64,000 nt of DNA from positions 6,467,302 to 6,531,301 of the forward strand of contig NZ_CP043538.1 of NCBI RefSeq assembly GCF_000364445.2, read 5' to 3'. Numbering within the stretch: position 1 is the stretch's first letter; every line of letters starts with the position of its first letter. A program made the translations under genes and the position numbers. Below the pieces are notes generated by a model that did no database searches, had not been told where the DNA came from, and was given only the letters and a program-made list of their open reading frames with translations. Positions 12,181 to 30,804 of this stretch are shown piece after piece. The DNA comes from Methylobacterium mesophilicum SR1.6/6 (GTDB taxonomy: Bacteria; Pseudomonadota; Alphaproteobacteria; Rhizobiales; Beijerinckiaceae).

Positions 12181-12216
12181 ATCTCATCCTCCCGTCGGAC
12201 GTGTTGTCTTCGTTCG

Positions 12217-14567: not shown

Positions 14568-14631
14568 CGTCTCCTCCCATGCTCTTATTTCGGGCTCGCG
14601 CTTCTGCCGCCCGCGTGCGGAAGCGGGCCGA

Positions 14632-15480
14632 TCAGCCGCTGCTTCGTCGCCGTTCGACCAGCATGCGGACATTCGCCGCCAGAGCGACCAGCCGGGGGCC
14701 GATCTCCTCCTCGAGCTGTTCGGGCCTCAGACGATAGGCTGGGAGCCCGCAGTTGATCGCGAAGGCGAAACCCGTCGTCGGATCGACGAAGAGCGGCACC
14801 GCAGCGGCGTGAATCTGCGCGACCCAGTCGCCCCGCGACACGCAGAATCCCCGTTCCGCGCAATCGCGGCGGGCCTGTTCGACGGCTGCCCCGAACCGAG
14901 CCCAGAGGTCTGGAGCCTCGCGCTCAAATTGACGTCGCAGGGCGAAGGCGGATTTGTCGTCAAGGAGCGACCACAGGGCGCGCCCCATCGCCGACCGCGG
15001 TAGTGGAATAGACGAACCGATATCGGGCGTATGGTGCAGGTTCTCCGTCGAGCGAGCGGTCTCGACGTAGATCATGTCCTGTCCGTATCGGATGCCGAGT
15101 GAAACAGTCCCACGCACTGAATCGGCGAAGTCTTGCATCGTCGGGCGCGCGATCTGTCGGAGCCCCATCTCCGCAAGTAGCGGATAAGCGAGCTTCAGGA
15201 CGCCGCCCCAAAGGCGATACTTCGCACCGCGAGGTTCGTAGGCGAGGTAACCTAACTCAGCCAGCGTCCTGGTCAGTCTGGCGACCGTAGGACGTGGAAG
15301 ACCAGTCCGCACGGCGATCTCGGCGTTGCCGAGGGCAGATCCGCCGGCACCGAATGCTTCCAGCACGACGAGCCCCTTGGCCAGAGTACGAGCGATCGAT
15401 GTGTCGCTTGCCGCCAGCGCGCCGGAGATTGGCTTGGAGAGGGGGACGACACTCATCGTGAAAGGATGAATGAGAACCAT
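14632..15480 (-). CDS. IclR-family transcriptional regulator
   Basis: A 282-residue IclR regulator. The N-terminal winged helix spans SIARTLAKGLVVLEAFG to TRTLAELGYLAYEP (about residues 28-85), with recognition helix text GLPRPTVARLTRTL. The C-terminal ligand-binding domain includes GIRYGQDMIYVETA, PLPRSAMGRALWSLL, RGFCVSRGDWVAQIHAAAVP and FAFAINCGLPAYRLRPEQL. An in-frame ATG at 15456 is an alternative start. It lies 65 bp upstream of the acyl-CoA dehydrogenase gene in the same direction and probably controls that operon. A matching inverted repeat lies 37-53 bp upstream of its start. Confidence 0.93.
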   Translation of the reverse strand: MVLIHPFTMSVVPLSKPISGALAASDTSIARTLAKGLVVLEAFGAGGSALGNAEIAVRTGLPRPTVARLTRTLAELGYLAYEPRGAKYRLWGGVLKLAYPLLAEMGLRQIARPTMQDFADSVRGTVSLGIRYGQDMIYVETARSTENLHHTPDIGSSIPLPRSAMGRALWSLLDDKSAFALRRQFEREAPDLWARFGAAVEQARRDCAERGFCVSRGDWVAQIHAAAVPLFVDPTTGFAFAINCGLPAYRLRPEQLEEEIGPRLVALAANVRMLVERRRSSG

Positions 15481-15764: not shown

Positions 15765-17084
15765 CTACCTCGTGGGCGCGGTCTGGACAAAGATGGTGAG
15801 GATCGCGCCGAGCGCGGCGACGCCCCCGAGGGCGTATAGGCCGCCCGCGAAGCTATCAGTCGAGTCCTTGATCGCGCCGACGACGTAGGGGCCGATGACG
15901 CCCCCGATATTGCCGACCGCGTTGATGAAGGCGATCCCGCCCGCGGCGGCCGCGCCGGTGAGGAACAGGGGCGGGATCGGCCAGAAGCAGGGGACCATGG
16001 CCGTGTTGCCGATGGTCGCGATCGAGAGGGCGAGGATCGTCCACGGCGAGGCCCCGAGGAGGGCCGAACAGCCCAGGCCGACCGCCATCATTACGAAGGT
16101 CGCGAAGACGTGCCAGCGCCGCTCCTGCATGCGGTCGGAGCTGTAGGCGAGGGCGAGCATGCCGATCGCCCCCGCGACGAAAGGCACGGCGGAGAGCAGG
16201 GCGGTCGTCGTGGTCGAACCGCCGATCGTCCGCACCACCTGCGGCAGGAAGAAGGCTACGCCGTAGAGGCAGGTGGCCCGGCACAGCCACACCGCCGTGA
16301 GGAGAAGCACGCGGGCATCGCGCAGGCTCGCGACGAACGAGACGTGCTCGTCCTCCCCGGCCTGCCGGCGCTCGGCGGCGAGCTCGGCGCTCAGCCAGCG
16401 GCGCTCCGCCGGGCCAAGCCACCGCGCGTCGTCCGGCCGGTCGGTCAAGACCTTGAGGGTGGCGAAGCCCAGGACCACGGAGGGCAACCCCTCAATCAGG
16501 AAGAGCCACTGCCACCCCGCGAGACCGTGGACGCCGTGCATGGAGAGCAGCGGCGCCGCGAGGACCGCTCCGGCGGCCGTCGAGAGCGGCGTCGCGAGGC
16601 TCAGGACGGCTAGCACGCGCGCGCGATAGCTGCGCGGGAACCAGTAGGTCAGATAGAGGATCACGCCTGGGTAGAAGCCGGCCTCGGCCGCCCCAAGGAG
16701 AAGACGGACCGCGTAGTAGCTCCAGGGACCCGTGATGAAGGCCATGCCGGCGGCGAGCAGGCCCCAGGTGAACATGATCCGGGCGATCCAGATGCGCGCG
16801 CCAACGCGCTCCAGCACGAGGTTGCTCGGCACCTCCAGAGCCACGTAGCTGATGAAGAAGACGCTCGCGCCCCATCCGTAGACGGTGGCCGACAGACCGA
16901 GATCGGCGTTCATCGTGAGCGCCGCGAAGGAGACGTTCACGCGGTCGAGCTGCGCCATGAAGTAGAGCAGCGCCAGGAACGGCATCAGCCGCCACATCAC
17001 CCGGCGGACGACGGCCTTCCCCTGGACCGTTGCCGGATCGGCCTTGACCGAGGCCGCCAGGCCTGCCTCTACCACCGTCGCCAC
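15765..17084 (-). CDS. MFS transporter, ACS family
   Basis: A 439-residue, 12-helix transporter. Family marks are LMPFLALLYFMAQLDRVNVSFA, SVFFISYVALEVPSNLVLERVGAR, and GAAEAGFYPGVILYLTYWFPRSYRAR. The central cytoplasmic loop (DRPDDARWLGPAERRWLSAEL) is also typical. The ATG at 17084 starts the conserved text without excess. It lies 166 bp after the ferredoxin reductase gene on the same strand, so it is probably the last gene of the hydroxylase operon and a second importer alongside the unrelated-looking MFS gene at 21106. The substrate is presumably the compound attacked by the neighbouring enzymes. Confidence 0.92.
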   Translation of the reverse strand: MATVVEAGLAASVKADPATVQGKAVVRRVMWRLMPFLALLYFMAQLDRVNVSFAALTMNADLGLSATVYGWGASVFFISYVALEVPSNLVLERVGARIWIARIMFTWGLLAAGMAFITGPWSYYAVRLLLGAAEAGFYPGVILYLTYWFPRSYRARVLAVLSLATPLSTAAGAVLAAPLLSMHGVHGLAGWQWLFLIEGLPSVVLGFATLKVLTDRPDDARWLGPAERRWLSAELAAERRQAGEDEHVSFVASLRDARVLLLTAVWLCRATCLYGVAFFLPQVVRTIGGSTTTTALLSAVPFVAGAIGMLALAYSSDRMQERRWHVFATFVMMAVGLGCSALLGASPWTILALSIATIGNTAMVPCFWPIPPLFLTGAAAAGGIAFINAVGNIGGVIGPYVVGAIKDSTDSFAGGLYALGGVAALGAILTIFVQTAPTR

Positions 17085-17250
17085 AACGGTACTCCCGGAC
17101 GCCTGCTACTCACGACGACCACTCCGACGATCACAGCGAACGACGATCGTTTCGATCCAAGGAGACACCTGACACCGGGCGAGGTCCGTCCGGGTCCAGT
17201 GCTATCGGGCGGGTCATCACATTGCTCCTGCGGCGTGACGGCCCCCGACA

Positions 17251-18474
17251 TCACAGTTTCGCCAGTTGTTGAGGGGTCACAGCCGGATTCGCGACGATCG
17301 CGGGGTCGATCACGCGGCGCGAGCGGATTAGGGCCTGCCCGGCGCGCACGTCGCGGGGAGCGTCGACCCCGATCACGGCCGTGACGGCCCCCGTTTCGTC
17401 CAGGAGCCAGGCCGAGAAGGAGGCCTCGCCCGCGCGACCGCGCATGACGAAGGGACCGCAAGACCCGTCCGCCGGTCGCGCCGCGACGTCGCCGGCGACC
17501 TGGAGCGAGCGGCCGTGCTGGTCGGTCCAGAACCAGGGCACCGCGTCGTATGGCTCGCCGGCGCCCGCCATCGCGCGGCCGACCGCGGCGCCGTGGTCCT
17601 GGGCATGGCGCCACGTCTCCCATCGCAGGCGGCGACCCAGCCGCGGGGACCAGAACGCCGCCACGTCGCCCGCCGCGTAGATGTCCGGAAGGTTCGTCCG
17701 GCCGAACGCGTCGACCGCGATCCCGCCGTCGAGCGCGACGCCCGCGGCCTCGGCCAGCTCGGTGTTGCGCACCATTCCGATCCCGGCGACAACGACGTCG
17801 GCCGCCACCGCCGTGCCCTCAGCGAGGATGACTGCCTCGGGAGTCACGGCGGCCACGCCCGACCCGAAGATCAGCCGGACCCCCGCGCCGCGATGCAGGT
17901 CGGCAAGCCAGGCGGCGATCCCGGGCGGCAGCGAGCGGCCCATGACGGTCGGGCCCGCCTCGACCACCGTGACCGCGCAGCCGCGGGCGCGCGCCGAGGA
18001 CGCGACCTCCAGCCCGATCACCCCCGCCCCGACGCAGACGACGCGGGCGCCAGGGCTCAGGCGGGCGCGCAGGGATCGGGCGTCGTCGAGGGTGCGCAGG
18101 GCGAGCACCCGCTCTGCCCCCGGCACGTCGAGGCGGCGCGCCCGCCCGCCGGTGGCCAGCAGCAGCGCGCCGTAGCGCAGGCTGCGGCCGTCGGCTAGGT
18201 CCACGGTCCGCGCCCCCGGGTCAATGCGGGTGGCCGCGGTTCCCCCGATGAACGCGATCTTGTTCTCGGCGTCGTGCGCCTCCGGGTGGAAGTGGCTGAC
18301 CGCGGGCTCCGCGGCGGCGGTGAGCCACTCCTTCGACAGGGGCGGCCGCTCGTACGGCCGCTTCGCCTCGTCGCCGACGAGGAGGATGGGGTCAGCGAAT
18401 CCGGCCCGACGCATCGCGGCCGCCGCGTGTGCGCCGGCCTGGCCGGCGCCCACGATGATCGCGGGATCGGCCAC
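17251..18474 (-). CDS. FAD-dependent ferredoxin reductase (AibF/BphA4-like)
   Basis: NAD(P)H:ferredoxin reductase of about 407 residues that would pass electrons to the Rieske ferredoxin encoded 2 bp upstream. The FAD dinucleotide fold is AIIVGAGQAGAHAAAAMR, followed by ERPPLSKEWL, the NAD(P) fold VVCVGAGVIGLEVASSARARG, and the FAD-site motif NLPDIYAAGDVAAF. The C-terminal reductase domain has QVAGDVAARP and AWLLDETGAVTAVIGVD. I chose a GTG start at 18474, right after the ferredoxin stop, because the dinucleotide fold begins four codons later. It resembles reductases of Rieske-type oxygenases and of the 2-aminoisobutyrate monooxygenase. It is the only such reductase in the locus and may serve both ferredoxins. 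Confidence 0.92.
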   Translation of the reverse strand: MADPAIIVGAGQAGAHAAAAMRRAGFADPILLVGDEAKRPYERPPLSKEWLTAAAEPAVSHFHPEAHDAENKIAFIGGTAATRIDPGARTVDLADGRSLRYGALLLATGGRARRLDVPGAERVLALRTLDDARSLRARLSPGARVVCVGAGVIGLEVASSARARGCAVTVVEAGPTVMGRSLPPGIAAWLADLHRGAGVRLIFGSGVAAVTPEAVILAEGTAVAADVVVAGIGMVRNTELAEAAGVALDGGIAVDAFGRTNLPDIYAAGDVAAFWSPRLGRRLRWETWRHAQDHGAAVGRAMAGAGEPYDAVPWFWTDQHGRSLQVAGDVAARPADGSCGPFVMRGRAGEASFSAWLLDETGAVTAVIGVDAPRDVRAGQALIRSRRVIDPAIVANPAVTPQQLAKL

Positions 18475-18476
18475 GC

Positions 18477-18890
18477 TCAGACGTCCACCACGATGTACTC
18501 GCCTTCGACGCTGACCGGTACGGTCTCGGCCACGTAGGGTCCCTCGACGACGCTCGCCCCGGACTGCGCGGACACGGGGTAGGACTTCGAGCGGATGCGC
18601 TCGGGGTCGCAGTAGGACTGACCCGTGCGGATATCGAACTCCCAGCCGTGCCAGGGGCAGCGGACGAACTCGCCGGGCCGGATCGTCTCGTAGTGGCCGG
18701 GCCCCTTTGAGCGGACGAGCCCCGTGACGACCCCGGCGCACAGGCTGCCGCCCTGATGGGGGCAGCGGTCGAGCATGCCGTAGTACTCGTTCTCCAGGTT
18801 GAAGATCGCGATTGGCCGGCCTTTCACCACGAAGCGCTTGCGGCCGCCCGGCGGGATCTCGCTCGTCGGGGCGACGACGTGCCGGCTCAC
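18477..18890 (-). CDS. Rieske [2Fe-2S] ferredoxin (AibG-like)
   Basis: A 137-residue Rieske protein that should carry electrons from the reductase to the amidohydrolase-fold pair. Cluster ligands are Cys43 and His45 in CPHQGG and Cys78 and His81 in CPWHGWEFD. The two motifs are separated by 32 residues, about twice the usual spacing in ferredoxin components, because of an insert containing LVRSKGPGHYETIRPGEF. The GTG start at 18890 overlaps the stop of the type-A gene by 4 bp and the reductase follows after 2 bp, so coupling is tight. No membrane or signal segment is present. A Rieske oxygenase large subunit is absent nearby. Confidence 0.93.
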   Translation of the reverse strand: MSRHVVAPTSEIPPGGRKRFVVKGRPIAIFNLENEYYGMLDRCPHQGGSLCAGVVTGLVRSKGPGHYETIRPGEFVRCPWHGWEFDIRTGQSYCDPERIRSKSYPVSAQSGASVVEGPYVAETVPVSVEGEYIVVDV

Positions 18891-19993
18891 GCCGCGACCC
18901 CGTAGAGGGCGTGGGCATTGCCCGAAAAGAACCCCCGCCGCTCCGCCTCGCCGATCTTGAGCGGCAGTGCGTGGGCCGGGTCGTCGAAGTCCCAGTGCGG
19001 ATAGTCGGTGGCGAACAGCAGCCGGTCCCAGCCCATCCACTGAATCGTGTCGAGCAGGTGCGCCCGCGGCTCCGGCTCCTCCATCGGCTGGCTCGTCCAC
19101 CACACGTGCTCGCGCAGATACTCGCTCGGCAGACGCTTCAGGTGCGGCGTCTCGGCCTTCAAGCTTCTCCAGAGCTTGTCCAGTCGCCACGCGCAGGCGG
19201 GCGCCCAGGCGAAGCCGGCCTCGACCATGATCACCTTGAGCGTTGGGAAGCGCTCGAAGATGCCCTCGACGACCATGCTGGCGAGGCCGGCCTGGCAGCT
19301 CTGGGCGTGACCGGCCATCTCCTCGATGTAGTAGCTCGGCCAGCCCGTGCTGGTGATCGGGTTGCCGCCGTAGCCGAAGGCGTGGACCGCCACCGGAAGC
19401 CCGGCCTCGGCCGCCGCCTCGTAGATCGGCCAGTAGCGCCGGTTGCCGAGCAGCTCGCCGGTGCGGGACAGGACGAGCACCTGGACGAAGTCCGTATCGC
19501 CGGCCCAGTGCCGGATCTCCGCGGCGGCCGCGTCGGCGAACTCGTAGGGTACGACGATCGACGCCTTCAGGCGAGCGTCCTTCGAGGTCCACTCGGCGCG
19601 TTGCCACTCGTTCGTCGCGCGGCAGAGCGCGGCGCAGAGCTCGGGGTTGGCGATCCCCTGGCCCGATTGGAGCGGGTTGAGGATGCCGAGCCCGACGTTG
19701 TTAGGATCGAGGTGCTGGGCCTGCATGAACGAGAGGCTCGACCCGGCCCGGCCGCCCTCGGGCGGCACGGCGTCGCGGCGCGCCGCGTCGGGCTGGGCCT
19801 TGGGGTAGGCGGGCCCGGCCTGCATGCCAAGGCGGCGCCCGGCGTCGAAGACCGCGAGGTGCTCGCGCCAGCGCTTCGATAGCCAGGGATCGAAGTCGCT
19901 GGCCGAGCGGCGCATCGGGTGGATATCGCAATCCGCGATCGCGGGTCGCGCCGCAGCGCGCACCACCGCATTAGGCTTGACGCTGACGTTCAT
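18887..19993 (-). CDS. Amidohydrolase-fold protein, type A copy 1 (AibH-like hydroxylase subunit)
   Basis: A 368-residue member of the amidohydrolase-2 family. Metal-site candidates are Asp21/Asp23/His25 in ADCDIHP, His204 in VAVHAFGYGG, and Asp330 in LFATDYPHWDFDD. GHAQSCQAGLASMVVEGIFE and QPMEEPEP are shared with copy 2 (22553) and copy 3 (26315). It overlaps the type-B gene upstream and the Rieske gene downstream by 4 bp each, so subunits A and B and the ferredoxin are likely made in step. Known families with this fold include decarboxylases and hydrolases, but coupling to a Rieske ferredoxin and reductase points to the AibH1H2-type monooxygenase. In-frame sequence upstream of 19993 belongs to the antisense of type B and was excluded. 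Confidence 0.88.
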   Translation of the reverse strand: MNVSVKPNAVVRAAARPAIADCDIHPMRRSASDFDPWLSKRWREHLAVFDAGRRLGMQAGPAYPKAQPDAARRDAVPPEGGRAGSSLSFMQAQHLDPNNVGLGILNPLQSGQGIANPELCAALCRATNEWQRAEWTSKDARLKASIVVPYEFADAAAAEIRHWAGDTDFVQVLVLSRTGELLGNRRYWPIYEAAAEAGLPVAVHAFGYGGNPITSTGWPSYYIEEMAGHAQSCQAGLASMVVEGIFERFPTLKVIMVEAGFAWAPACAWRLDKLWRSLKAETPHLKRLPSEYLREHVWWTSQPMEEPEPRAHLLDTIQWMGWDRLLFATDYPHWDFDDPAHALPLKIGEAERRGFFSGNAHALYGVAA

Positions 19994-21054
19994 GCTACCG
20001 TCTCCCTCAGGCGGGCGTAGGTTGCCCGCGGATTGTCGTGGGTAATCTTGCGCAGCAGGCCTCGCGGCAGACCCTCGGGGATCGCGGCCGTGCCCTCGAA
20101 CTGCCCATGCGGGTAGTCGGTCGAGAACAGGAGCATGTCGTCGGACTGCATGTGCTCTACGAGCCGCGCGAGGTCGGCCGGTTCCGGCGGAGCGTCGGTC
20201 GGGGTGAGCGACAGCCGGACGTTCGACCGGACGATCTCGGCGGGCGGCCGGTCGACCCAGGGAATCTCCATCCGCAGCCCGTGCCAGTACTTCGTCAGCC
20301 GCCACAGGTGGGCCGGCAGCCACGTCCAGCCCGATTCGAGCAGCACGACCTTCAGGTCCGGGTACTTCGAGAACACGCCCTCGCAGATCAGGCTCGTGAG
20401 CTGCGTCTGGAAGGCTTGCGCCTGCGCGAAATAGTCCTCTGTGTAGTAGCTTGGCCAACCCATCGCGGTCGGCGGGTTGTGATAGTTGCTGCCGGCGTGG
20501 ATGCCGACGGCCAGGCCGTGGCGCGCAGCCGCCGCGTAGATCGGCCAGTACAGCCGCCGCCCGAGCGGGTGCTCACCGCTCGCGAGGAGCAGCACCTGCA
20601 CGAAGCGCGGGTCGGCCGCGCAGCGCTCGATCTCGTCGACGGCGAACTCGACGTTTCGCGTCTGGACCACGATGCTGGCGCGCAGGCGCGGCTCGCGGTC
20701 GAGCCACTCGCGGGCGATCCACTCGTTCACGGCGCGCGCAAAGGCGGCGGCCATGTCTTCAGCGAACAGCATCTGTACGCCGTACAGGCAGTTGAGGATT
20801 GCGAGCGACGAGCCGAACGCGTCGAGGCACTCGCCCCGCATCTGCGCGAGCGTCCCGGCCGGCCTGCCCACCGCGGGCCGCCAGTCGGCGCGTGCCGTGA
20901 TCGGCGCGTTGGCCGGGTAGCTGATCGTGTTCAGCTCGTCGATCCCGCGGGTCTCGACCATCGCCCGCCAGTGACCGTCCATGTACGGCAGCAGGGCGTC
21001 CAGCCCGGGGACCGTCGGATGGACGTCGCAGTCAATCGCGCCCGGCTCGATCAT
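19990..21054 (-). CDS. Amidohydrolase-fold protein, type B copy 1 (AibH-like hydroxylase subunit)
   Basis: A 354-residue amidohydrolase-2 family protein, distantly related to its type-A partner. Metal-site candidates are Asp8/Asp10/His12 in IDCDVHP, His186 and His192 in GIHAGSNYHNP, and Asp313/His316 in FSTDYPH. The ATG at 21054 follows AGGGA and begins two residues before the first conserved block; a TTG 42 bp further up is a weaker alternative. The gene overlaps type A by 4 bp and follows the MFS gene by 51 bp. Together with type A it should form a heteromeric enzyme, by analogy with AibH1H2, where one subunit is catalytic. Which subunit here holds the active metal centre cannot be told from sequence. 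Confidence 0.87.
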   Translation of the reverse strand: MIEPGAIDCDVHPTVPGLDALLPYMDGHWRAMVETRGIDELNTISYPANAPITARADWRPAVGRPAGTLAQMRGECLDAFGSSLAILNCLYGVQMLFAEDMAAAFARAVNEWIAREWLDREPRLRASIVVQTRNVEFAVDEIERCAADPRFVQVLLLASGEHPLGRRLYWPIYAAAARHGLAVGIHAGSNYHNPPTAMGWPSYYTEDYFAQAQAFQTQLTSLICEGVFSKYPDLKVVLLESGWTWLPAHLWRLTKYWHGLRMEIPWVDRPPAEIVRSNVRLSLTPTDAPPEPADLARLVEHMQSDDMLLFSTDYPHGQFEGTAAIPEGLPRGLLRKITHDNPRATYARLRETVA

Positions 21055-21105
21055 CGCACTTCGTCCCTCGTCATCGCGCTCGTCCTCTCCCGCCAACCCG
21101 AAAAA

Positions 21106-22455
21106 TCACTCGCGCCCGACCGAGGGGGCGCCGCCGATGCCGGCAGGCGGCGCGGGAGCGACGGCGCCCGGGGCATGCTCGGGCGTGCGCACCATCATCA
21201 TCAGCAACCCGCCGATCAGCCCGATCGCGGCCAGGAACGTGAAGCCGGCCGAGACGTCGCCGGTCATCGTCTTCAGCCAGCCGACAACGACCGGGCCGAA
21301 GAAGCCGCCGACGAGGTTGGCCACCGCGCCGCTGAACGCGATCGCGACGATCGCCTGCCGGCGCGGCAGGAGCTGGGTGAACATCACGGTCATGAGCGGC
21401 AGCGTCATGAACATGAAGAAGCCGCTTAGCGTCACGCACACCATCATCGCGGCGACCGATCCGGCGCCCGTGCGCGAACTCGCGTAGAGGAGCGCGGCGA
21501 GCAGGAGCATCGGGATCGCCCCGTGTAGGCGCCGCTCGTTGAAGCGGTCGGAGCTGAGGCCAATCAGCCAGATGCCGAGGACGCTCGCCGCGTAGGGTAG
21601 CGCGGTGAGTACGCCGACGCTGCCGATGCCGAGCGCGCTCGCGTCCTTGATCGCTGTCGGAAGCCACAGCGTGAAGCCGTAGGCGATCATGTTGTTGAAG
21701 GTCTTGGCAACCAGCAGCAGCCACACGCCGGGATGGAGCAGCACCCCGCGTAGGTCCACCGGGCCGAGGCTCGCGTCGAACTGAGCCTGCTCGCGAGCTA
21801 GCCCATCTGCCAGCGCGGCGCGCTCGGCGGGTTCGAGCCAAGCCGCCTCGTCGGGCGTGTCCGGGATGAAGCGCGACCAGACCAGCGCGTAGATCAGCGC
21901 CGGCAGACCCTCAACCACGAGCATCGTCTGCCAGCTATAGTGGCTGATGATGAGGCCCGAGATCGGCCCCGACAGGAGGGCGCCGACGGGCAGGCTGGCG
22001 TTCCAGGTCGCGAAGGCGCGCGCCCGCTCGGGCTTCACGAACCACTGCGCCAGGATCGCCGACATCGAGGACCAGATCGGCCCCTCGGCGAGCCCAAGCA
22101 GGGCGCGCATGACCAGGAGCGACGCGAGGCTGGTGGTGAAGCCCGTCGCCATAGCGGCGAGGCTCCAGGCCACGAGCGAGGCCAGCGTCACCCGCTTGGC
22201 GCCGAAGCGGTTCGACAGCCATCCGCCCATCAGGAAGCTGACGAGGTAGCCCCAGAAGAACACACCGCCGACGAAGCCGGCCTCGGTCGGGTTGAGACCG
22301 AACTCCTTCGAAATGGCGGGCAGCGCGGTGCCGATGTTGACGCGGTCGAGGTAGGAGATCGTGTAGACGATGAACACGCTCGGCAGGATATGCGCCCAGC
22401 GCTTGCCGAAGCCGATCGTCTCCGTCTCTGGGCGGGGCGCCGCAATATTGGCCAT
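21106..22455 (-). CDS. MFS transporter within the hydroxylase operon
   Basis: A 449-residue, 12-helix transporter distinct from the ACS-type genes around it. It begins MANIAAPRPETETIGFGKRW, and helix 1 reads ILPSVFIVYTISYLDRVNIG. Conserved loop text includes GGWLSNRFGAKRV and LGLAEGPIWSSMSAILAQWF. The ATG at 22455 has GGGAGG upstream; the ORF extends further but without conserved sequence. It sits between the two hydroxylase gene pairs, 97 bp after type A copy 2 and 51 bp before type B copy 1, suggesting that it imports the shared substrate. Confidence 0.9.
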   Translation of the reverse strand: MANIAAPRPETETIGFGKRWAHILPSVFIVYTISYLDRVNIGTALPAISKEFGLNPTEAGFVGGVFFWGYLVSFLMGGWLSNRFGAKRVTLASLVAWSLAAMATGFTTSLASLLVMRALLGLAEGPIWSSMSAILAQWFVKPERARAFATWNASLPVGALLSGPISGLIISHYSWQTMLVVEGLPALIYALVWSRFIPDTPDEAAWLEPAERAALADGLAREQAQFDASLGPVDLRGVLLHPGVWLLLVAKTFNNMIAYGFTLWLPTAIKDASALGIGSVGVLTALPYAASVLGIWLIGLSSDRFNERRLHGAIPMLLLAALLYASSRTGAGSVAAMMVCVTLSGFFMFMTLPLMTVMFTQLLPRRQAIVAIAFSGAVANLVGGFFGPVVVGWLKTMTGDVSAGFTFLAAIGLIGGLLMMMVRTPEHAPGAVAPAPPAGIGGAPSVGRE

Positions 22456-22552
22456 GACGTGTCCTCCCGAACGTCGTCGATCCATCGCCGAGGCACCTTC
22501 TCGTGGGGCGGCCATCGGGTGTCGATATGTGTGCCGCGCTCCCGCGGGCGTC

Positions 22553-23662
22553 CTACGCCGCGACCCCGTAGAGGGCGTGGGCGTTGCCCGAGAAGAACCC
22601 CCGCCGCTCCGCCTCGCCGATCTTGAGCGGCAGCGCGTGGGCCGGGTCGTCGAAGTCCCAGTGCGGATAGTCGGTGGCGAACAGCAGCCGGTCCCAGCCC
22701 ATCCACTGAATCGTGTCGAGCAGGTGCGCCCGCGGCTCCGGCTCCTCCATCGGCTGGCTCGTCCACCACACGTGCTCGCGCAGATACTCGCTCGGCAGAC
22801 GCTTCAGGTGCGGCGTCTCGGCGCGCAGCGTGGACCACGCCTTGTCGAGGCGCCACGCGAGCGGCGGAGCCCAGGCGAAGCCCGCCTCCACCATCACCGT
22901 GCGTAAGGTGGGGAAGCGCTCGAAGATGCCCTCGACGACCATGCTGGCGAGGCCGGCCTGGCAGCTCTGGGCGTGACCGGTCATCTCCTCGATGTAGTAG
23001 CTCGGCCAGCCCGTGCTGGTGATCGGGTTACCGCCGTAGCCGAAGGCGTGGACCGCCACCGGAAGCCCGGCCTCGGCCGCCGCCTCGTAGATCGGCCAGT
23101 AGCGCCGGTTGCCGAGCGGCTCGGCGGTGCGCGAGAGCAGCAGCACCTGCACGAACTCCGGGTTGCGCGCGGCCCAGAACGCGATCTCCGCAGCGGCCGC
23201 GTCGGCGAACTCGTAGGGTACGACGATCGAGGCCCTGAGGCGCCGGTCGGCGGCGAGCCAGGCCTCCTCCTGCCAATGGTTGACCGCGCGGCAGAGCGCG
23301 GCGCTGAAGTCTGGGTTCATGACGCCCTGGCCCGACAGCAGTGGGTTGAGGATGCCGAGCGTCACGTTGTGGGCGTCAAGGTGGTGGGACGCCATGAAGC
23401 TCGGGCTCGACCCCTGGCGCCCGCCCTCCGGCGGGTAGGCGTCGCGGCGCGAGGCGTCCGGCTGGTTCTTGGGGTAGGCCGGGCCCTTGTGCATGCCGAG
23501 CCGGCGCAGGATGCCGTACTGGGCCGCGTACTCGCGCCAGCGCGGCTCCAGCCAAGTGTCGAGGTCGCTCGGCGAGCGTAGGGCCGGGTGGATGTCGCAA
23601 TCGGCGATGCCGGGTGTCGCCGGCGCGGCGGCGAACCGCTGGGGACGGACCTCGACGTTCAT
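22553..23662 (-). CDS. Amidohydrolase-fold protein, type A copy 2 (AibH-like hydroxylase subunit)
   Basis: A 369-residue paralogue of the gene at 18887. It keeps ADCDIHP near residue 21, VAVHAFGYGGNP near 205 and LFATDYPHWDFDD near 331. The last 265 bp differ from copy 1 at only about three positions, and a second block of about 210 bp is also nearly identical, while the DNA between and beyond is much more divergent. The start at 23662 overlaps the type-B gene by 4 bp. The very long open frame continuing upstream through the type-B region is antisense and not coding. Residue differences concentrate around positions 100-180 and 270-285, which could alter substrate choice relative to copy 1. 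Confidence 0.88.
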   Translation of the reverse strand: MNVEVRPQRFAAAPATPGIADCDIHPALRSPSDLDTWLEPRWREYAAQYGILRRLGMHKGPAYPKNQPDASRRDAYPPEGGRQGSSPSFMASHHLDAHNVTLGILNPLLSGQGVMNPDFSAALCRAVNHWQEEAWLAADRRLRASIVVPYEFADAAAAEIAFWAARNPEFVQVLLLSRTAEPLGNRRYWPIYEAAAEAGLPVAVHAFGYGGNPITSTGWPSYYIEEMTGHAQSCQAGLASMVVEGIFERFPTLRTVMVEAGFAWAPPLAWRLDKAWSTLRAETPHLKRLPSEYLREHVWWTSQPMEEPEPRAHLLDTIQWMGWDRLLFATDYPHWDFDDPAHALPLKIGEAERRGFFSGNAHALYGVAA

Positions 23663-24729
23663 GCCACGGGCTCCAGCAGGCGGGCGTAGGTCGCCCGCGG
23701 GTTGTCGACACCGATCTTGCGCCTCAAAGTGTCCGGCAGTCCCGCGGGCCAGGGATCCTGCCCCTCGAACTGGGCGTGCGGGTAGTCGGTCGAGAACAGC
23801 AGCAATTCGTCCGAGCCCATGTGGTCGAGGATGCGTAGCAGGGCGTCCGTGCTCGGCGGCGCGTCGGTCGGCGTGAGCGACAGGCGCACGTTGGTCCGCA
23901 CGATCTCGACGGGCGAGCGGTCGACCCAGGGGATCTCGGCGCGCAGGCCCCGCCAGTACTTCGTCAGCCGCCACAGGTGGGCCGGCAGCCACGTCCAGCC
24001 CGATTCGAGCAGCACGACCTTCAGGTCCGGGTACTTCGAGAACACGCCCTCGCAGATCAGGCTCGTGAGCTGCGTCTGGAAGGCCTGGGCCTGCGCGACG
24101 TAATCCTCGGTGTAGTAGCTCGGCCAGCCGACGGCGGTCGGCGGGTTGTGATAGTTGCTGCCGGCGTGGATGCCGACGGCCAGGCCGTGGCGCGCGGCCG
24201 CCGCGTAGATCGGCCAGTACAGCCGCTTGCCCAGCGGGTGATCGCCGCCGGCGAGCAGCAGCACCTGCACGAAGCGCGGGTCGGCCGCGCAGCGCTCGAT
24301 CTCGTCGACGGCGAACTCGACGCTCTGGACCGGCACCACGATGCTGGCGCGCAGGCGCGGCTCGCGGTCGAGCCACTCGCGGGCGATCCAGTCGTTCACT
24401 GCGCGCGCGTAGCCCGCCGCCATGTCCTCGCTGAACAGGAGCTGCACGCCGTAGAGGCAGTTCAGGATCGCCGTCCCCGACCCGAAGGCGTCCAGGCACT
24501 GCGCGCGGACCTGCTCCAGGGTGGCGGCCGGCTTGCCCGTCCCGGGCCGCCAGTCGGCGCGCGCGCTCAGCGGCGAGCCGGCCGGGTAGCTGATGGAGTT
24601 GAGGTCGTCCATGCCGCGCGTCTCGACGACGGCGCGCCAGTGCTCCTCCATGTAAGGCCGGAGCGCGGCGAGGTTCGGCACGGACGGATGGATGTCGCAG
24701 TCGATCGACGACGCGGGGCTCCACGACAT
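23659..24729 (-). CDS. Amidohydrolase-fold protein, type B copy 2 (AibH-like hydroxylase subunit)
   Basis: A 356-residue paralogue of the gene at 19990 and first gene of the minus-strand operon. It has IDCDIHP near residue 10, GIHAGSNYHNP near 188 and FSTDYPH near 315. About 115 bp (23965-24080) is almost identical in DNA to the matching part of copy 1 (20295-20410). The ATG at 24729 gives MSWSPASSIDCD, close to the first conserved block. It shares a 175-bp divergent control region with the MFS gene at 24905, which holds a 16-bp inverted repeat. It overlaps type A copy 2 by 4 bp. Confidence 0.87.
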   Translation of the reverse strand: MSWSPASSIDCDIHPSVPNLAALRPYMEEHWRAVVETRGMDDLNSISYPAGSPLSARADWRPGTGKPAATLEQVRAQCLDAFGSGTAILNCLYGVQLLFSEDMAAGYARAVNDWIAREWLDREPRLRASIVVPVQSVEFAVDEIERCAADPRFVQVLLLAGGDHPLGKRLYWPIYAAAARHGLAVGIHAGSNYHNPPTAVGWPSYYTEDYVAQAQAFQTQLTSLICEGVFSKYPDLKVVLLESGWTWLPAHLWRLTKYWRGLRAEIPWVDRSPVEIVRTNVRLSLTPTDAPPSTDALLRILDHMGSDELLLFSTDYPHAQFEGQDPWPAGLPDTLRRKIGVDNPRATYARLLEPVA

Positions 24730-24822
24730 GGCCCTGACCTCCCTCAGTCCTGCTTTCTTGGCACCCGCCTCTGCGGGCGGTGTGGCCAGCGACCGCCGAC
24801 CGCAGGCATCATGCCCCAGGAA

Positions 24823-24838
24823 AGTTGTTTCGACAACT
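24823..24838. promoter_or_regulatory. Candidate operator in the divergent hydroxylase control region
   Basis: AGTTGT-TTCG-ACAACT is a perfect 6-bp inverted repeat with a 4-bp centre, lying between the divergent starts at 24729 and 24905. Its form suits a dimeric MarR-type repressor, and a MarR gene lies at 27884 on the plus-strand arm. Binding is inferred. Confidence 0.5.
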
Positions 24839-24904
24839 GGTTTGCATCAGCCCCGCGTTCGGGTCTACTCTGCGCTCAGAACAAGACGGCCACGGGTGGA
24901 GACG

Positions 24905-26224
24905 ATGGGCACGGACCGGTCGCCGGCGTTCCGCCGGATGCAGTGGGTCGCGGTCGCGATGTGCACGTTCGCGATCGCCCTGAACTACATCGATCGCTCG
25001 ACGCTCGCGATCGGCAACCTGAAGATCCGCGAGGAGTTCGGCATCTCGGCTACGGGGATCGGCGCGCTCCAGTCGGCGTGGTCGATCGCCTTCGCGCTGG
25101 CCCAGATCCCGGTCGGCCTGATGATCGACCGCGTCGGCCCGCGCCGGCTCCTCGGCTGGGCGCTCGTCCTGTGGTCGCTCGCCCAGGCGGCCGGCGGCGC
25201 GATGGCGGGCTACATGGGCTTCCTGTGCTCGCGCGTTGCGCTTGGGGTCTTCGAGTCGCCCGCGTTCCCGAGCGCGGTCCGCACGGTGGCGAACTGGTTC
25301 GCGATCCGCGACCGCGGCCGCCCGACCGGCGTCTACACGATCGGCGGCGACCTCGGCCGCCTGATCGGGACGCCGCTGCTCACGGCGCTCATGCTCGCCT
25401 TCGGCTGGCGCACGATGTTCGTCGTGATGGGCGTCGTCGGCCTGCTCGGGGCGCTCGCGTGGTTTGCGCTCTACCGCGACCCGAGGTTCGACGGAATGGC
25501 GGCGGCGGACCGGGCCTATCTCGCGCAGAACGGCGTGGGCGCCCGCGGGCCCGTCACGCTGGCGAGCTGGAAGCGATTGTTCCGCTTCCGCTCGATGTGG
25601 GGGATGATCCTAGCGGCCTTCTGCTCGGGCTACGCCCTGTGGATGTACGGCACGTGGCTGCCCGGCTACCTGGAAATGGAGCACCACGTCAGCATCGCCC
25701 GGACCGGCGTGCTGGCTATGATCCCGCTGGCCTGCTCCATCATCGGCTCGATCGTGGGCGGCTGGCTGACCGATCGCCTCGCCCATGGCACCATGGGGAT
25801 CGTGGAGAGCCGCAAGCTCCCGGCGGCGCTCGGCTACGTCGCGGCGTCGGTGTTCTGCGGGCTGGCCGCCTCCGCCGCCTCAATGGAGTGGGCGCTCGCC
25901 GCCATCTCAGCCTCGATGTTCTTCATGGCGATCGCCCAGTCCGGCAAGTGGACACTGATCACCGCGATCGCCCCGCAATCCTACGCGGCCTCGGCCTCCT
26001 CCATCCAGAACTTCGGGTCCTACCTCGGCGGCACGCTCTCGCCGATCGTGACGGGGATGGTCGTGGACTCGACGGGCTCGTTCGTGCTCGCGCTGGCGCT
26101 CGGCGCGTCCGTGATGATGGCCGCGGCCGCGTTCTTCTACTTCGGCGTCGGCGAGCCGATCACGATCGAGGCGCTCGGCGGGGAGCCCGACGCCCCGGTC
26201 GCGCGGCCGCTCGGCGCCGCCTAG
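24905..26224 (+). CDS. MFS transporter, ACS family
   Basis: A 439-residue, 12-helix transporter opening the plus-strand arm of the locus. Helix 1 reads MCTFAIALNYIDRSTLAIG, followed by ALQSAWSIAFALAQIPVGLMIDRVGPRR and FESPAFPSAVRTVANWF. This resembles the glucarate/galactonate/hexuronate branch of the family. The ATG at 24905 has GGTGGAG upstream; the frame remains open further upstream across the control region but without transporter-like sequence. It precedes type A copy 3 by 90 bp. It is the third MFS gene tied to the amidohydrolase/Rieske locus. Confidence 0.92.
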   Translation: MGTDRSPAFRRMQWVAVAMCTFAIALNYIDRSTLAIGNLKIREEFGISATGIGALQSAWSIAFALAQIPVGLMIDRVGPRRLLGWALVLWSLAQAAGGAMAGYMGFLCSRVALGVFESPAFPSAVRTVANWFAIRDRGRPTGVYTIGGDLGRLIGTPLLTALMLAFGWRTMFVVMGVVGLLGALAWFALYRDPRFDGMAAADRAYLAQNGVGARGPVTLASWKRLFRFRSMWGMILAAFCSGYALWMYGTWLPGYLEMEHHVSIARTGVLAMIPLACSIIGSIVGGWLTDRLAHGTMGIVESRKLPAALGYVAASVFCGLAASAASMEWALAAISASMFFMAIAQSGKWTLITAIAPQSYAASASSIQNFGSYLGGTLSPIVTGMVVDSTGSFVLALALGASVMMAAAAFFYFGVGEPITIEALGGEPDAPVARPLGAA

Positions 26225-26314
26225 TCGGTCCGACTGGAGAGCATCGCGGACGGTGATGGGCAGGGCACCGTCCGAGTGTCATGGACGACGCGTCCTTCGC
26301 ATTAGGAGACGAGC

Positions 26315-27460
26315 ATGAACGTCGAACTTCGCCCGCGCCCCGCCGCCGCCGCCGCGCAGCGACTCGGGATCGCCGACTGCGACATCCACCACAGCCCGCG
26401 CGACTTCCGGATGCTCTACGCCTACCTCCCGAAGAAGTGGCGCGACCATCTCGACATGTTCGGCCAGCGGCCCCGGCAGGGTCCCGCGGCCGGGCCGCAA
26501 TTCCCCAAGAGCCAGCCCGACGCGTCGCGGCGCGACGCGTGGCCCCCGGTCGGCGGGCGGCCGGGCAGCGACCTCGACTTCATGCGCACCCACCACCTAG
26601 ACGCGAACGGGATCGAGCTCGGCATCCTAGCGATGATCCGCCCGCATCCCGGCGGCATGCAGAACCTCGACCTCTCCGGCGCGCTCGCGGCCGCGATCAA
26701 CGACTGGCAGGTCGCCGAGTGGACGGGGCGCGAGCGGCGCTTCAAGGCCTCGATCGTCGTGCCCTACGAGGACGCAGCGGCCTCGGTCGCCGAGATCGAG
26801 CGCTGGGCCGGGCACGCAGACATGGTCCAGGTGCTCCTGCTGTCGCGCACCGTCGAGCCGCTGGGCCATCGGCGCTACTGGCCGATCTTTGAGGCGGCCT
26901 CGCGCGCCGGGCTGCCGGTCGGGATCCACGCCTTCGGCAACGGCGGCCAGCCGACCACCGGCACCGGGTGGCCCAGCTACTACGCGGAGGACATGATCGG
27001 CCATTCGCAGTCGTGCCAGGCGATGGTGAGCAGCATGGTGCTCGGCGGTTTGTTTGCGCACGTCCCGGATCTGCGCGTTGTGCTGATCGAGGCAGGCTTC
27101 GCCTGGCTCCCGCCGCTCGCCTGGCGCCTCGACCAGGCATGGCGGACCTTGCGGAGCGAGACGCCCGCCGTGACCCGGCCTCCGAGCGCCATCATTCGCG
27201 ATCACTTCTGGCTCACGACCCAGCCGATGGAGGAGCCGGACGAGACCGCGCATCTCTCCGACACGATCGGGTGGATCGGCTGGGACAGGCTGCTGTTCGC
27301 CACCGATTACCCGCACTGGGATTACGACGACCCGCGCCACGCCCTGAAGCTCGCGCCGACGCCCGCGCAGCGCGAGGCATTCTTCATCGGCAACGCGCGG
27401 TCGCTCTACATCCGACAGGACATGATCCGCCTGGACATGGCAGGGAGTGACGCGCGGTGA
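26315..27460 (+). CDS. Amidohydrolase-fold protein, type A copy 3
   Basis: A 381-residue relative of the two type-A proteins. It has ADCDIHH near residue 21 (His in place of Pro after the motif), VGIHAFGNGG near 208, SYYAEDMIGHSQSCQAMVSS, QPMEEPDETAHLSDTIGWIGW and LFATDYPHWDYDD. DNA similarity to copies 1 and 2 is much lower than between those two, so it is an older paralogue. RBS AGGAG lies at 26307-26311. The stop overlaps the GTG start of a Rieske ferredoxin gene by 4 bp, repeating the gene order of copy 1. No type-B gene is present in this arm, so it may act alone or pair with a type-B protein from the other operon. Confidence 0.87.
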   Translation: MNVELRPRPAAAAAQRLGIADCDIHHSPRDFRMLYAYLPKKWRDHLDMFGQRPRQGPAAGPQFPKSQPDASRRDAWPPVGGRPGSDLDFMRTHHLDANGIELGILAMIRPHPGGMQNLDLSGALAAAINDWQVAEWTGRERRFKASIVVPYEDAAASVAEIERWAGHADMVQVLLLSRTVEPLGHRRYWPIFEAASRAGLPVGIHAFGNGGQPTTGTGWPSYYAEDMIGHSQSCQAMVSSMVLGGLFAHVPDLRVVLIEAGFAWLPPLAWRLDQAWRTLRSETPAVTRPPSAIIRDHFWLTTQPMEEPDETAHLSDTIGWIGWDRLLFATDYPHWDYDDPRHALKLAPTPAQREAFFIGNARSLYIRQDMIRLDMAGSDAR

Positions 27461-27786
27461 GCGAGGACACGGTGGACGGCAACTGGACGCGGATCGCCGG
27501 GACGGGCGACGTCGGCGAGGGGGAGGCCGTGCCGGTCGAGGTCGCGGGCCTGAGCCTCGCCCTCTTCCGCGTCGACGGGGCGTGGTACTGCACGGACAAC
27601 GTCTGCACGCACGCCTACGCGTTGCTGACCGACGGCTGGCTGGAGGGCTGCCTGATCGAGTGCCCGCTGCACAACGGCCAGTTCGACGTCCGCACCGGCG
27701 AGGGGCAGGGCGCCCCAATCATCGAGGATCTACGGACCTACCCGGTCCGCGTCGAGGGGGACGCGGTTCTCGTCGCCCTCCCCTGA
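27457..27786 (+). CDS. Rieske [2Fe-2S] ferredoxin, standard length
   Basis: A 109-residue Rieske ferredoxin with ligands Cys50 and His52 in CTHAYALL and Cys69 and His72 in CPLHNGQFD, 16 residues apart, as in ferredoxin components of aromatic dioxygenases. The C-terminal VRVEGDAVLVALP is typical. It starts with GTG and overlaps the type A copy 3 gene by 4 bp. No reductase gene is next to it, so it probably receives electrons from the reductase at 17251 or from another one in the genome. It is clearly different from the longer ferredoxin at 18477. Confidence 0.93.
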   Translation: MSEDTVDGNWTRIAGTGDVGEGEAVPVEVAGLSLALFRVDGAWYCTDNVCTHAYALLTDGWLEGCLIECPLHNGQFDVRTGEGQGAPIIEDLRTYPVRVEGDAVLVALP

Positions 27787-27788
27787 GC

Positions 27789-27828
27789 CCCGCGGGCGGT
27801 CCTCCCGCCGCGGGCCGGTTGCGTTTTT
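27789..27828 (+). terminator. Possible terminator after the ferredoxin gene
   Basis: A GC-rich stem with one bulged base (CCCGCGGGCGG and CCGCCGCGGG, 27789-27814) is followed nine bases later by five T residues. It would separate the ferredoxin gene from the MarR gene. The gap between stem and T-run makes it imperfect. Confidence 0.4.
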
Positions 27829-27830
27829 CC

Positions 27831-27845
27831 TCTCAGGTTGTGAGA
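27831..27845. promoter_or_regulatory. Possible operator upstream of the MarR gene
   Basis: TCTCA-GGTTG-TGAGA is a perfect 5-bp inverted repeat ending 38 bp before the MarR start codon. It differs from the AGTTGT repeat at 24823, so a common regulator is not implied. Short repeats of this size can arise by chance. Confidence 0.3.
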
Positions 27846-27883
27846 CTCCGGTGCCGCCTCGCCTCTCGGAGGATCCCTGCCGC

Positions 27884-28480
27884 ATGGGTGACGTCCCCAA
27901 GCTCGTCCGGCCGCTGCCCCGCGGCGAGTACCGCCTGCTAGACAACATTACCTTCAACATCGGCCGGCTAGCCAGCAGCTACAACAGGAGCGCGGTCCGC
28001 TACTACCTGCGCCATTTCGACCTGAGCGTCGCCGAGGTCCACGTCCTGAACGTGATCGGCCACTACGAGCCCGTCCTCGCCGTCGACGTCGCCGGGACCG
28101 CGCTCATGGACAAGGGGCTCGTCTCGCGCGCCGTGGCCAAGCTGACCGAGGTCGGCCTCGTCGCCAGGAGCGCCGATGCCGCCGATGGTCGACGTCAGAT
28201 CCTCACGCTGACCAGATCCGGGCGCGTCACCTGGTCCGGGGTCTGGGGCGCCAAGCAGCGCCGGCACCACCGCTTCCTGGAGACGCTGACGGAGGCCGAG
28301 ACCGAGCAGTTGTTTGGTATCCTGGCGCGCCTCCAGGACAATGCGGACCGGGTCGAGCGGGAGGAGGCGGCGGAGGGGGGAGAGGCGCGGGTCGCCGTCC
28401 GCGGGCGCGCTCCGGGGGCGCCGGTCGATCTGGCGCCGTTCGTTCCGGACGGTGAACGGCGGCAGAGGGGGCGTAGCTGA
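27884..28480 (+). CDS. MarR-family transcriptional regulator
   Basis: A 198-residue winged-helix regulator of the MarR family, probably a ligand-responsive repressor of the amidohydrolase/Rieske operons. The DNA-binding part runs from FDLSVAEVHVLNVIGHYEP through DKGLVSRAVAKLTEVGLVARSADAADGRRQILTLT, with the wing DGRRQ. The final 40 residues are charged, arginine-rich and not part of the family fold. The ATG at 27884 has GGAGGA ten bases upstream; a GTG at 27851 is an alternative. Position at the end of the plus-strand arm and an inverted repeat in the divergent region support local control. Confidence 0.88.
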   Translation: MGDVPKLVRPLPRGEYRLLDNITFNIGRLASSYNRSAVRYYLRHFDLSVAEVHVLNVIGHYEPVLAVDVAGTALMDKGLVSRAVAKLTEVGLVARSADAADGRRQILTLTRSGRVTWSGVWGAKQRRHHRFLETLTEAETEQLFGILARLQDNADRVEREEAAEGGEARVAVRGRAPGAPVDLAPFVPDGERRQRGRS

Positions 28481-29838: not shown

Positions 29839-30804
29839 TCACCGCTCGAGATCGCCATAGTCGTGCTTGTACGCCCCAGGTACGAAACACTCGAATGTCT
29901 GGCTCCAACGCTGCCCGGGCCAGAGATAATCGACGCGCTTTTCTGCAGGTCGGTACACGGCTGTGTAGGCTGTGGTGAACGCGACTTTCCGCGAGTACAG
30001 CGGCGGCTCGAAGAAGAGTGCCGTCAGCCCCGTTAACGTGCTGGAAGGATCACCCAGAGCATCGTCGAGCACGCTCTGGCGTAGGAACGACCCTGACGCA
30101 GGTGACGCCCGCTCTTGATGGTTCGTGCATGTCCTCAGCCACGTCACAGTGGGCTCACGCCTGGGTCCGAGGAAGAGCGTGGCATGCTCGCCCGTCCCGT
30201 CGAGTAGCGTGACGTTGTGGAGTTGGGTGACCGGGATGCGGCACAAGGCGGCGACGGCCTCGCCGACCGACCCGCACGTCTCAAGCACGTAGCGGAGCAT
30301 CAGGATGATGGCGAAGCCCAGCCCGCGCCTGGCCATACCGCCGAGCGTACAGCTGGCGACCAGTCCATCGTCGTTCATCCCATCCAGGCAGCCGCCCCAG
30401 GGTCGTTGCGCCATCGCGATCACGCGCCGCTGGGACCACGCGGTGAGTTCGATGCGCCCGGTGATGATGGGGAGGGGATAATCGTAGTTGCGAACCAGAG
30501 CTGGACCTTCGTCGCCCAGCCACACGGCTTGGCTGCAACCCTGCGGGCGAGGTGCCGGGCGATAGTGGCTGAGGATGCGGTGAGCCAGGTCGTCGTCTCC
30601 AACCAGCCCGCACACGTGATCGTAGTGCGGGACAAGTTCCGGCATGTGCCGCAGCAGGGCGGCACGGCACTCGGAAGCCGATGGGCGTTCGGCGTTCCCC
30701 TCTCCGAAATACCACCGCTCGGCTTCGTCCCGCCCCGCCCGGAAGCGTTCGAGCCACGCTGTGCCAGGGCGATCCTCGCGTTGGGCGGTGAACGTCTTCT
30801 CCAT
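29839..30804 (-). CDS. C45-family acyltransferase/peptidase-like protein (Ntn hydrolase)
   Basis: A 321-residue protein resembling the acyl-CoA:6-aminopenicillanic acid acyltransferase family, Ntn hydrolases activated by self-cleavage before a cysteine. The candidate nucleophile is Cys90 in PQGCSQAVW, followed by ALVRNYDYPL, the asparagine-aspartate motif seen after the nucleophile in this family. GGCLDGMNDDGLVASCTLGG and LRYVLETCGSVGEAVAAL also fit. The ATG at 30804 was preferred to a GTG three codons earlier because it is better spaced from AGG. The substrate is unknown; such proteins acylate or hydrolyse amide-linked small molecules. It stands alone, divergent from the DUF2252 gene. Confidence 0.82.
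   Translation of the reverse strand: MEKTFTAQREDRPGTAWLERFRAGRDEAERWYFGEGNAERPSASECRAALLRHMPELVPHYDHVCGLVGDDDLAHRILSHYRPAPRPQGCSQAVWLGDEGPALVRNYDYPLPIITGRIELTAWSQRRVIAMAQRPWGGCLDGMNDDGLVASCTLGGMARRGLGFAIILMLRYVLETCGSVGEAVAALCRIPVTQLHNVTLLDGTGEHATLFLGPRREPTVTWLRTCTNHQERASPASGSFLRQSVLDDALGDPSSTLTGLTALFFEPPLYSRKVAFTTAYTAVYRPAEKRVDYLWPGQRWSQTFECFVPGAYKHDYGDLER

Follow-up and report, generated by a model that had tools for sequence, protein, structure and literature searches.

Predicted heteromeric amidohydrolase-related dinuclear oxygenases with duplicated subunit pairs and two kinds of Rieske ferredoxin in Methylobacterium mesophilicum SR1.6/6

The stretch of DNA analysed here, called the window throughout, comprises 64,000 nt of Methylobacterium mesophilicum SR1.6/6 (NZ_CP043538.1 6,467,302-6,531,301), and at 15765..28480 it holds a locus in which genes for amidohydrolase-fold proteins, here termed type A and type B, stand among genes for Rieske ferredoxins, a ferredoxin reductase, transporters and a regulator. 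The genome has 12 matches to PF04909 (Amidohydro_2), five of which are the locus proteins A1-A3 and B1-B2. The features of the locus are the following.

23659..24729, minus strand: B1, AibH1-like accessory subunit, 356 residues (best PDB match AibH1, 6m1w_A, E 1.7e-78; ligand set; tree)
22553..23662, minus strand: A1, AibH2-like catalytic subunit, 369 residues (ATGA overlap with B1)
21106..22515, start possibly 22455, minus strand: MFS2, organic-anion-type transporter of the major facilitator superfamily (MFS) (PF07690; D-galactonate-transporter-like, below the NCBIfam cut-off)
19990..21054, minus strand: B2, AibH1-like subunit, 354 residues, duplicate of B1 (79% identity; ligands, tree)
18887..19993, minus strand: A2, AibH2-like catalytic subunit, 368 residues, duplicate of A1 (80% identity; ATGA overlap with B2; ligands, tree)
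18477..18890, minus strand: FD1, long-spacer Rieske ferredoxin, 137 residues (PF00355; 32 residues from CxH to CxxH; GTGA overlap with A2)
17251..18474, minus strand: RED, flavin adenine dinucleotide (FAD)-dependent ferredoxin reductase of the biphenyl/toluene dioxygenase type, GTG start (PF07992 and PF14759)
15765..17084, minus strand: MFS3, transporter (PF07690; D-galactonate/4-hydroxyphenylacetate permease-like, below the NCBIfam cut-off)
24905..26224, plus strand: MFS1, transporter, divergent from B1 (PF07690; best PDB match D-galactonate transporter, E 1.4e-54)
26315..27460, plus strand: A3, AibH2-like catalytic subunit, 381 residues, without a B gene of its own (best PDB match 6m1w_B, E 3.8e-83; clade support 0.999)
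27457..27786, plus strand: FD2, classical dioxygenase-type Rieske ferredoxin, 109 residues (PF00355; 16-residue spacing; GTGA overlap with A3)
27884..28480, plus strand: MarR-family regulator (PF12802)
24823..24838, no strand: AGTTGT-TTCG-ACAACT inverted repeat, possible operator, in the divergent B1/MFS1 intergenic region

On the minus strand the reading order is B1, A1, MFS2, B2, A2, FD1, RED, MFS3, and on the plus strand MFS1, A3, FD2, MarR. A first-pass annotation had listed three type-A and two type-B genes, two ferredoxins, three MFS transporters and one MarR gene, all of which were located together with one FAD reductase. Its description of an operon joined by 4-bp overlaps stands for B1/A1, B2/A2, A2/FD1 and A3/FD2, where the overlap is exactly 4 bp, but not for FD1/RED, where the RED start lies 2 bp past the FD1 stop. 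A small Rieske gene thus adjoins A2 (FD1) and A3 (FD2), and A1 has none directly adjoining. The absence of a Rieske oxygenase alpha subunit, noted earlier for the locus, extends to the whole genome as far as PF00848 is concerned (0 matches). The inverted repeat is the sole copy in the window at up to three mismatches; at least one match was seen in 6 of 100 shuffles. A promoter scan found no promoter.

When A and B were compared with AibH1, AibH2 and PtmU3, as the first-pass annotation had suggested, A matched AibH2 best (E 4.7e-90 for A1) and B matched AibH1 best. PtmU3 (E 1e-15 to 1e-17) and the decarboxylases (1.1e-16 or worse) lie far behind AibH1 and AibH2 for A1, A3 and B1; the E-value of the best match to an amidohydrolase-related dinuclear oxygenase (ARO, the class name used in PMC10401708 and PMC10811679) is lower than that of the best decarboxylase match by over 60 orders of magnitude. 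Identity to AibH2 is 44% for A1, 42% for A2 and 40% for A3, and identity to AibH1 is 39% for B1 and 38% for B2.

The metal ligands point the same way. AibH2 binds its metals through D25, H27, H211, E265, D337 and H340, with D342 in the second sphere, whereas AibH1 uses D24, H26, H201, E255 and D328 and lacks an equivalent of D342 (PMC7782822). A1 keeps D23, H25, H205, E259, D331 and H334 together with D336 at the D342 position; B1 has D12, H14, H188, E242 and D315, and Q320 at that position. For comparison, we drew on 88 loci outside the window (the best 80 of 148 from a species-genome scan, plus 8 plasmid loci), found with B queries and therefore containing B by construction. Among 82 aligned A proteins (79 from loci and three from the window, window genes counted once), the AibH2 ligand columns hold D in 76, H in 76, H in 82, E in 81, D in 81 and H in 79, and the D342 column holds D in 79; the exceptions are an H at E265 and a V at D342, each in a single protein, the remainder being gaps. 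Among 87 aligned B proteins (85 from loci and two from the window, counted in the same way), the AibH1 ligand columns hold D in 84, H in 83 and H, E and D in all 87, with one Q and otherwise gaps, and the D342 column holds Q in 77, N, R and H in three each and one gap, so that none of the 87 is acidic there. Judged by these columns, A is built like a catalytic subunit and B like an accessory subunit.

A tree built solely with FastTree and rooted at the midpoint, for which 69 proteins were taken from 33 loci chosen by hand, groups A with AibH2 (support 0.949) and B with AibH1 (0.862), and sets SfbO and 8SM7 apart (0.977). The predicted fold of A1 agrees with those of the AROs, and decarboxylases rank below AROs in fold. 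PDB matches, ligands and tree therefore agree with the earlier proposal that A and B form an oxygenase on the amidohydrolase fold by the logic of the Aib system, and the fold of A1 fits it; a placement of A or B among decarboxylases was looked for in sequence and fold and was not seen. We consider it likely that the locus encodes heteromeric AROs of the AibH1H2 type. The class was described in 2021-2024, and the locus is a case of that known class, not new in kind; what is new here, as predicted from the genes, is the duplication of AibH1H2-type pairs, the third catalytic subunit and the two different ferredoxins. The reaction is known for few AROs, and the name amidohydrolase is routinely given to proteins of this fold. 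As a further mark of the subunits, we considered AibH1 K282 and Y287, reported to touch the metal loop of AibH2 (review PMC12141560). Both were rejected: Lys, matched by spacing, is found at the K282 position in 86 of 87 B proteins but also in A1, and so does not discriminate B from A, and the Y287 position is mostly Leu in B (77 of 87).

A1 and A2, like B1 and B2, are sister pairs in the tree (1.0 and 0.93), and the DNA of the two B-A copies (18887-21054 and 22553-24729) is a mosaic: identity per 100-bp bin ranges from 65 to 99%, and runs at 89-93% and 95-99% stand amid stretches of 65-82%, a pattern that looks like gene conversion. A3, which is 59% identical to A1, forms a clade with proteins of three other loci, L012, L066 and L032 (support 0.999), each with one B and no other A in its fetched stretch; B lies directly downstream in L012, divergently beside the A gene in L032 and within 4 kb in L066. 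Because each clade-mate has a B nearby, we infer that A3 uses B1 or B2. The sister pairing and the blocks of up to 99% identity would also fit a dosage duplication, in which A1-B1 and A2-B2 act on the same substrate while A3 works separately, as a single-subunit ARO using FD2 alone. This is possible but rather unlikely, as other blocks are only 65-82% identical, A3 keeps all its ligands, and for each of its three clade-mates a B gene is found no more than ~4 kb away.

In the mechanism that we propose for the AibH1H2-type oxygenases of the locus, and consider likely as an oxygenase mechanism, the MFS transporters would import a small organic anion, and each A would hold a dinuclear Mn/Fe or Fe2 site. 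B, as an AibH1-like partner with a mononuclear site, would by analogy stabilise A in an A-B complex. A would activate O2 and hydroxylate the substrate at a C-H bond; dealkylation of the kind seen in SfbO may accompany the reaction. A catabolic role for the locus is presumed, and likewise its class of substrate: a small anion is only suggested by the D-galactonate-transporter-like MFS proteins, which fall below the NCBIfam cut-off. Alternatively, the oxygenase could tailor a biosynthetic product rather than start a catabolic route, as might be proposed from PtmU3, which shares the fold and is biosynthetic (PMC7782822, PMC12141560), and from the acyltransferase-like AAT gene at 29839-30813. We regard this as improbable: the transporters are of uptake type and accompanied by a regulator, no biosynthetic scaffold genes occur among the annotated genes, and elsewhere the cassette often stands with sugar or peptide ATP-binding cassette (ABC) importers.

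In other genomes the cassette has sugar-type ABC permeases as neighbours in up to 20 loci, a beta-lactamase/D-aminopeptidase-type protein close by in 11 and an MGH1-like glycoside hydrolase in nine, and a scan of 92 other neighbours gave four M20 peptidases and six MFS proteins; of these neighbour types, only MFS is seen in the window. Deducing a substrate from neighbour genes was tried and rejected, since contexts differ between loci and no substrate is thereby implied. In nine loci (L055, L073, L075, L077, L079, L081, L082, L092 and L093, from Bosea, Roseomonas and others), a LacI-like regulator, a solute-binding protein, sugar ABC permeases and an MGH1-like glycoside hydrolase accompany the cassette, a context that is a good substrate lead. 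A paper on vitamin B2 (PMC12746152), which concerns a classical Rieske dioxygenase, was set aside as not relevant.

The two ferredoxins differ in the number of residues between CxH and CxxH, 32 in FD1 and 16 in FD2. Outside the window the FD1 type has 32-34 residues in all 58 locus matches and the FD2 type 16 in all 11; loci L001-L011 are excluded from these counts, as from those of B-A order, of A and FD1 presence and of RED given below. The FD1-like open reading frames in five of L001-L011, from other genomes, also have 32, as do all 120 FD1 homologues among the matches listed. Matches of the FD1 type occur in 89 plasmid records (40 listed); in 10 of these, picked by hand, the spacing is 32-36 in every case and an ARO-like protein lies directly upstream in nine, none being found in the tenth (L127). 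Three of the ten are haloarchaeal, and most have a single amidohydrolase gene.

The two types also differ in linkage to AROs. A profile of FD1 gave 34 matches in 21 of 385 Alphaproteobacteria genomes, and a profile of FD2 matched in 81 of the same genomes. We then took 30 loci of each type by automatic selection rather than by hand, and scored as ARO-like any protein with more than 60 bits to profiles from the A and B sets, a threshold that near relatives would also pass. All 30 FD1-type loci fetched (window included) have an ARO-like open reading frame within ~1.5 kb and a spacing of 32-38, and the motif D-x-P-H-x-D is visible in the fetched part for 24 of them and not for six. Only one of 30 FD2-type loci has an ARO-like neighbour, and that locus is the window itself. 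The long-spacer Rieske thus seems to offer an easy way to find AROs by sequence. Neither it nor the present locus is mentioned among the titles and abstract beginnings listed for open-licence PMC papers, and the distinction of two ferredoxin kinds goes beyond the text consulted from PMC10401708 and PMC10811679.

These counts bear on whether FD1, FD2 and RED serve some other oxygenase, either the P450 at 35.9-37.2 kb or a LigXa-like Rieske protein at 3.76 Mb. Such a role is very improbable overall, even though genes for a P450 and a second FAD reductase are found 7 kb rightward, a Rieske oxygenase-type protein is encoded elsewhere in the genome and the FD2 type lacks an ARO neighbour in 29 of 30 loci: FD1 and FD2 each overlap an A gene by 4 bp, the P450 has an adjoining reductase gene of its own, no PF00848 protein exists in the genome, and the FD1 type is linked to AROs. 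For FD1, a partnership with another oxygenase is unlikely, since every one of the 30 FD1-type loci has an ARO-like neighbour and just one of the 30 FD2-type loci does; the case for FD2 is weaker, and because its type mostly lacks ARO neighbours elsewhere, its link to AROs would derive from the overlap with A3 and a few loci. It is scarcely credible that A and B are mononuclear hydrolases or decarboxylases of the usual PF04909 sort, with ferredoxin and reductase genes adjacent by accident, in view of the E-value margin, the dinuclear ligands and Asp342 kept in A, and the ARO linkage of FD1-type genes in all 30 loci.

The B-A pair followed by a Rieske gene recurs in other genomes, mostly of Acetobacteraceae and other Alphaproteobacteria. 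A is the next gene after B on the same strand for 56 of 87 B genes (the two of the window included), and the overlap is exactly 4 bp in 44 of these 56, so that the arrangement is more than chance; the count of A after B is an undercount, since gene calling in the fetched loci was a GC-frame heuristic that missed 37 of 301 anchor open reading frames. Of 53 loci of at least 15 kb (window excluded), A is present in 47, FD1 in 37, both in 33 and neither in two. A match to A was present in all 10 genomes behind 11 selected loci, among them the four loci with B and FD1 that lack A. Acidisphaera sp. S103 has 8 B matches and 10 matches to the A query, one of which is a B, leaving nine A. At least two A-type open reading frames occur in nine loci besides the window, six of them with one B, but in L045, which is among these six, identity of the second A is no more than 27%. 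The close B subfamily (E 1e-100) is found in 8 of 385 Alphaproteobacteria genomes sampled, the host included. Relatives are many: with 8000 candidates scored for each query, 5349 proteins match B1 and 5810 match A1 at E <=1e-60, although the two sets include paralogues and may overlap.

RED consists of Pyr_redox_2 and Reductase_C domains (best PDB match biphenyl dioxygenase ferredoxin reductase, E 1.6e-74), and the best PDB match of FD2 is naphthalene dioxygenase ferredoxin (E 1.3e-27). RED is found in six loci besides the window, five of which also have FD2, and on a Sulfitobacter plasmid (L129, 3895-7046) A, FD1, FD2 and the reductase stand in a row. That plasmid, of 48 kb, is typed conjugative, and IS5- and Tn3-type transposases flank the set, perhaps a mobile oxygenase set. 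A PDR/VanB reductase takes the place of RED in loci from Rhodococcus (L098), Microvirga (L095) and Sinorhizobium fredii (L123), with a Fer2 2Fe-2S domain in the first two; it was found in no other of the 88 loci, most of which show neither kind of reductase. The Rhodococcus locus, AibH-like and on a plasmid, has a long-spacer Rieske of 33 residues.

From these few loci, electrons would pass from NADH to the FAD reductase RED, then to FD2, FD1 and the dinuclear site of A; the simplest common scheme would run from a flavin to a first 2Fe-2S centre (the Fer2 domain or FD2), to FD1 and to the dinuclear site. Tentatively, AROs may own a dedicated Rieske type (FD1, 32-38 residues) that belongs permanently to the oxygenase. 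Its electrons would come from a reductase with its own 2Fe-2S domain in Aib, Rhodococcus, Sinorhizobium fredii and Microvirga, and here from an FAD reductase by way of a classical Rieske, making a two-Rieske relay; the three A proteins may share B subunits and carriers as a small combinatorial set of oxygenases. Such a relay, if true, would supply a physiological reductant for in vitro assays of AROs, which have used ascorbate (PMC10811679, PMC10401708).

The closest known system is AibH1H2-AibG-AibF, the 2-aminoisobutyrate hydroxylase of Rhodococcus wratislaviensis (PMC7782822, PMC10401708), with which the locus shares two amidohydrolase-fold subunits (mononuclear H1 and dinuclear H2), a Rieske ferredoxin, an NADH-linked reductase and a transporter. 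A long-spacer Rieske also appears shared, as judged from the AibH-like Rhodococcus locus rather than from the sequence of AibG itself. Unlike the Aib system, the present locus has two pairs and a third A gene, MFS transporters in place of an amino acid permease, and a biphenyl-dioxygenase-type FAD reductase with a classical Rieske, where AibF is a flavin mononucleotide-binding reductase containing a 2Fe-2S domain (PMC7782822); RED, with its two domains, is not of this kind. Counterparts of aibD1, aibE, aibC, aibA and aibT were not found among the annotated genes at 10.8-28.5 kb, the part of the genome searched. SfbO and the other AROs of 8SM6-8SM9 (PMC10811679) are alike in fold, ligand set and adjacent Rieske gene, although the text consulted from that paper mentions no B partner, and A groups with AibH2 rather than with SfbO and 8SM7 in the tree. 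PtmU3 is likewise an amidohydrolase-fold dinuclear oxygenase. With the Rieske non-heme iron dioxygenase chains (biphenyl, toluene, naphthalene), the locus shares the families of RED and FD2 but not the alpha subunit, the predicted terminal oxygenase here being the A-B pair.

Several observations weigh against this interpretation of the locus. As to family, A3 matches the decarboxylase 4icm (1.1e-16) slightly better than PtmU3 (2.5e-15), and support for the placement of B is moderate. The best match of the A1 model is 8SM7, a single-subunit ARO that is the Geobacillus Y412MC10 protein of PMC10811679, with AibH2 within 1.4 Z units, so that fold does not single out AibH2; the model is also poor (predicted local distance difference test, pLDDT, below 50) at 52-71 and again, next to ligand H205, at 208-226. 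As to the arrangement, B and FD1 occur without a nearby A in 4 of 53 loci, with A elsewhere in each of the four genomes, FD1 was not found beside B and A in 14 of 53, relatives of FD2 rarely stand beside AROs, and A3 has no B gene of its own. As to function, transporter and hydrolase neighbours vary from locus to locus, and A1 and A2 may not differ in substrate, a difference made doubtful by their long near-identical DNA blocks.

To judge by the closest named matches, the locus probably reached the host from an Acetobacteraceae-like source. B1 was found in none of 58 congeners searched (E 1e-50). To the left, at 10855-15480 on the minus strand, lie genes for an MFS transporter, a CoA-transferase III (CaiB), an acyl-CoA dehydrogenase and an IclR regulator. 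The first of these (10855-12180), a fourth MFS gene just outside the locus, is 40% identical to MFS3. Since the CaiB gene (12217-13413) was likewise found in none of the 58 congeners (E 1e-150), the acquired stretch may reach left to include these genes. To the right, the DUF2252 gene at 31125-32621 is present in 44 of 59 genomes of the genus, the host included, and collinearity restarts at ~30.34 kb against the congeners G007 and G036 and at ~31.0 kb against G021 and G037. At this edge (29839-31040) lies the AAT-family, penicillin acyltransferase-like gene; 30338-30582 matches two congeners and 30583-31039 does not.

Elsewhere in the genome, Rieske domains give seven matches, FD1 and FD2 included. 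One is a 557-residue Rieske protein at 3.76 Mb with weak similarity to LigXa_C, and another lies at 0.85 Mb; on account of the former, the absence of a Rieske oxygenase does not extend genome-wide to all Rieske oxygenase types. The cytochrome P450 gene (35903-37183, minus strand) stands beside that for the second FAD reductase (37204-38406, minus strand; Pyr_redox_2 and Reductase_C), and from their sequences the two are a separate oxygenase system.

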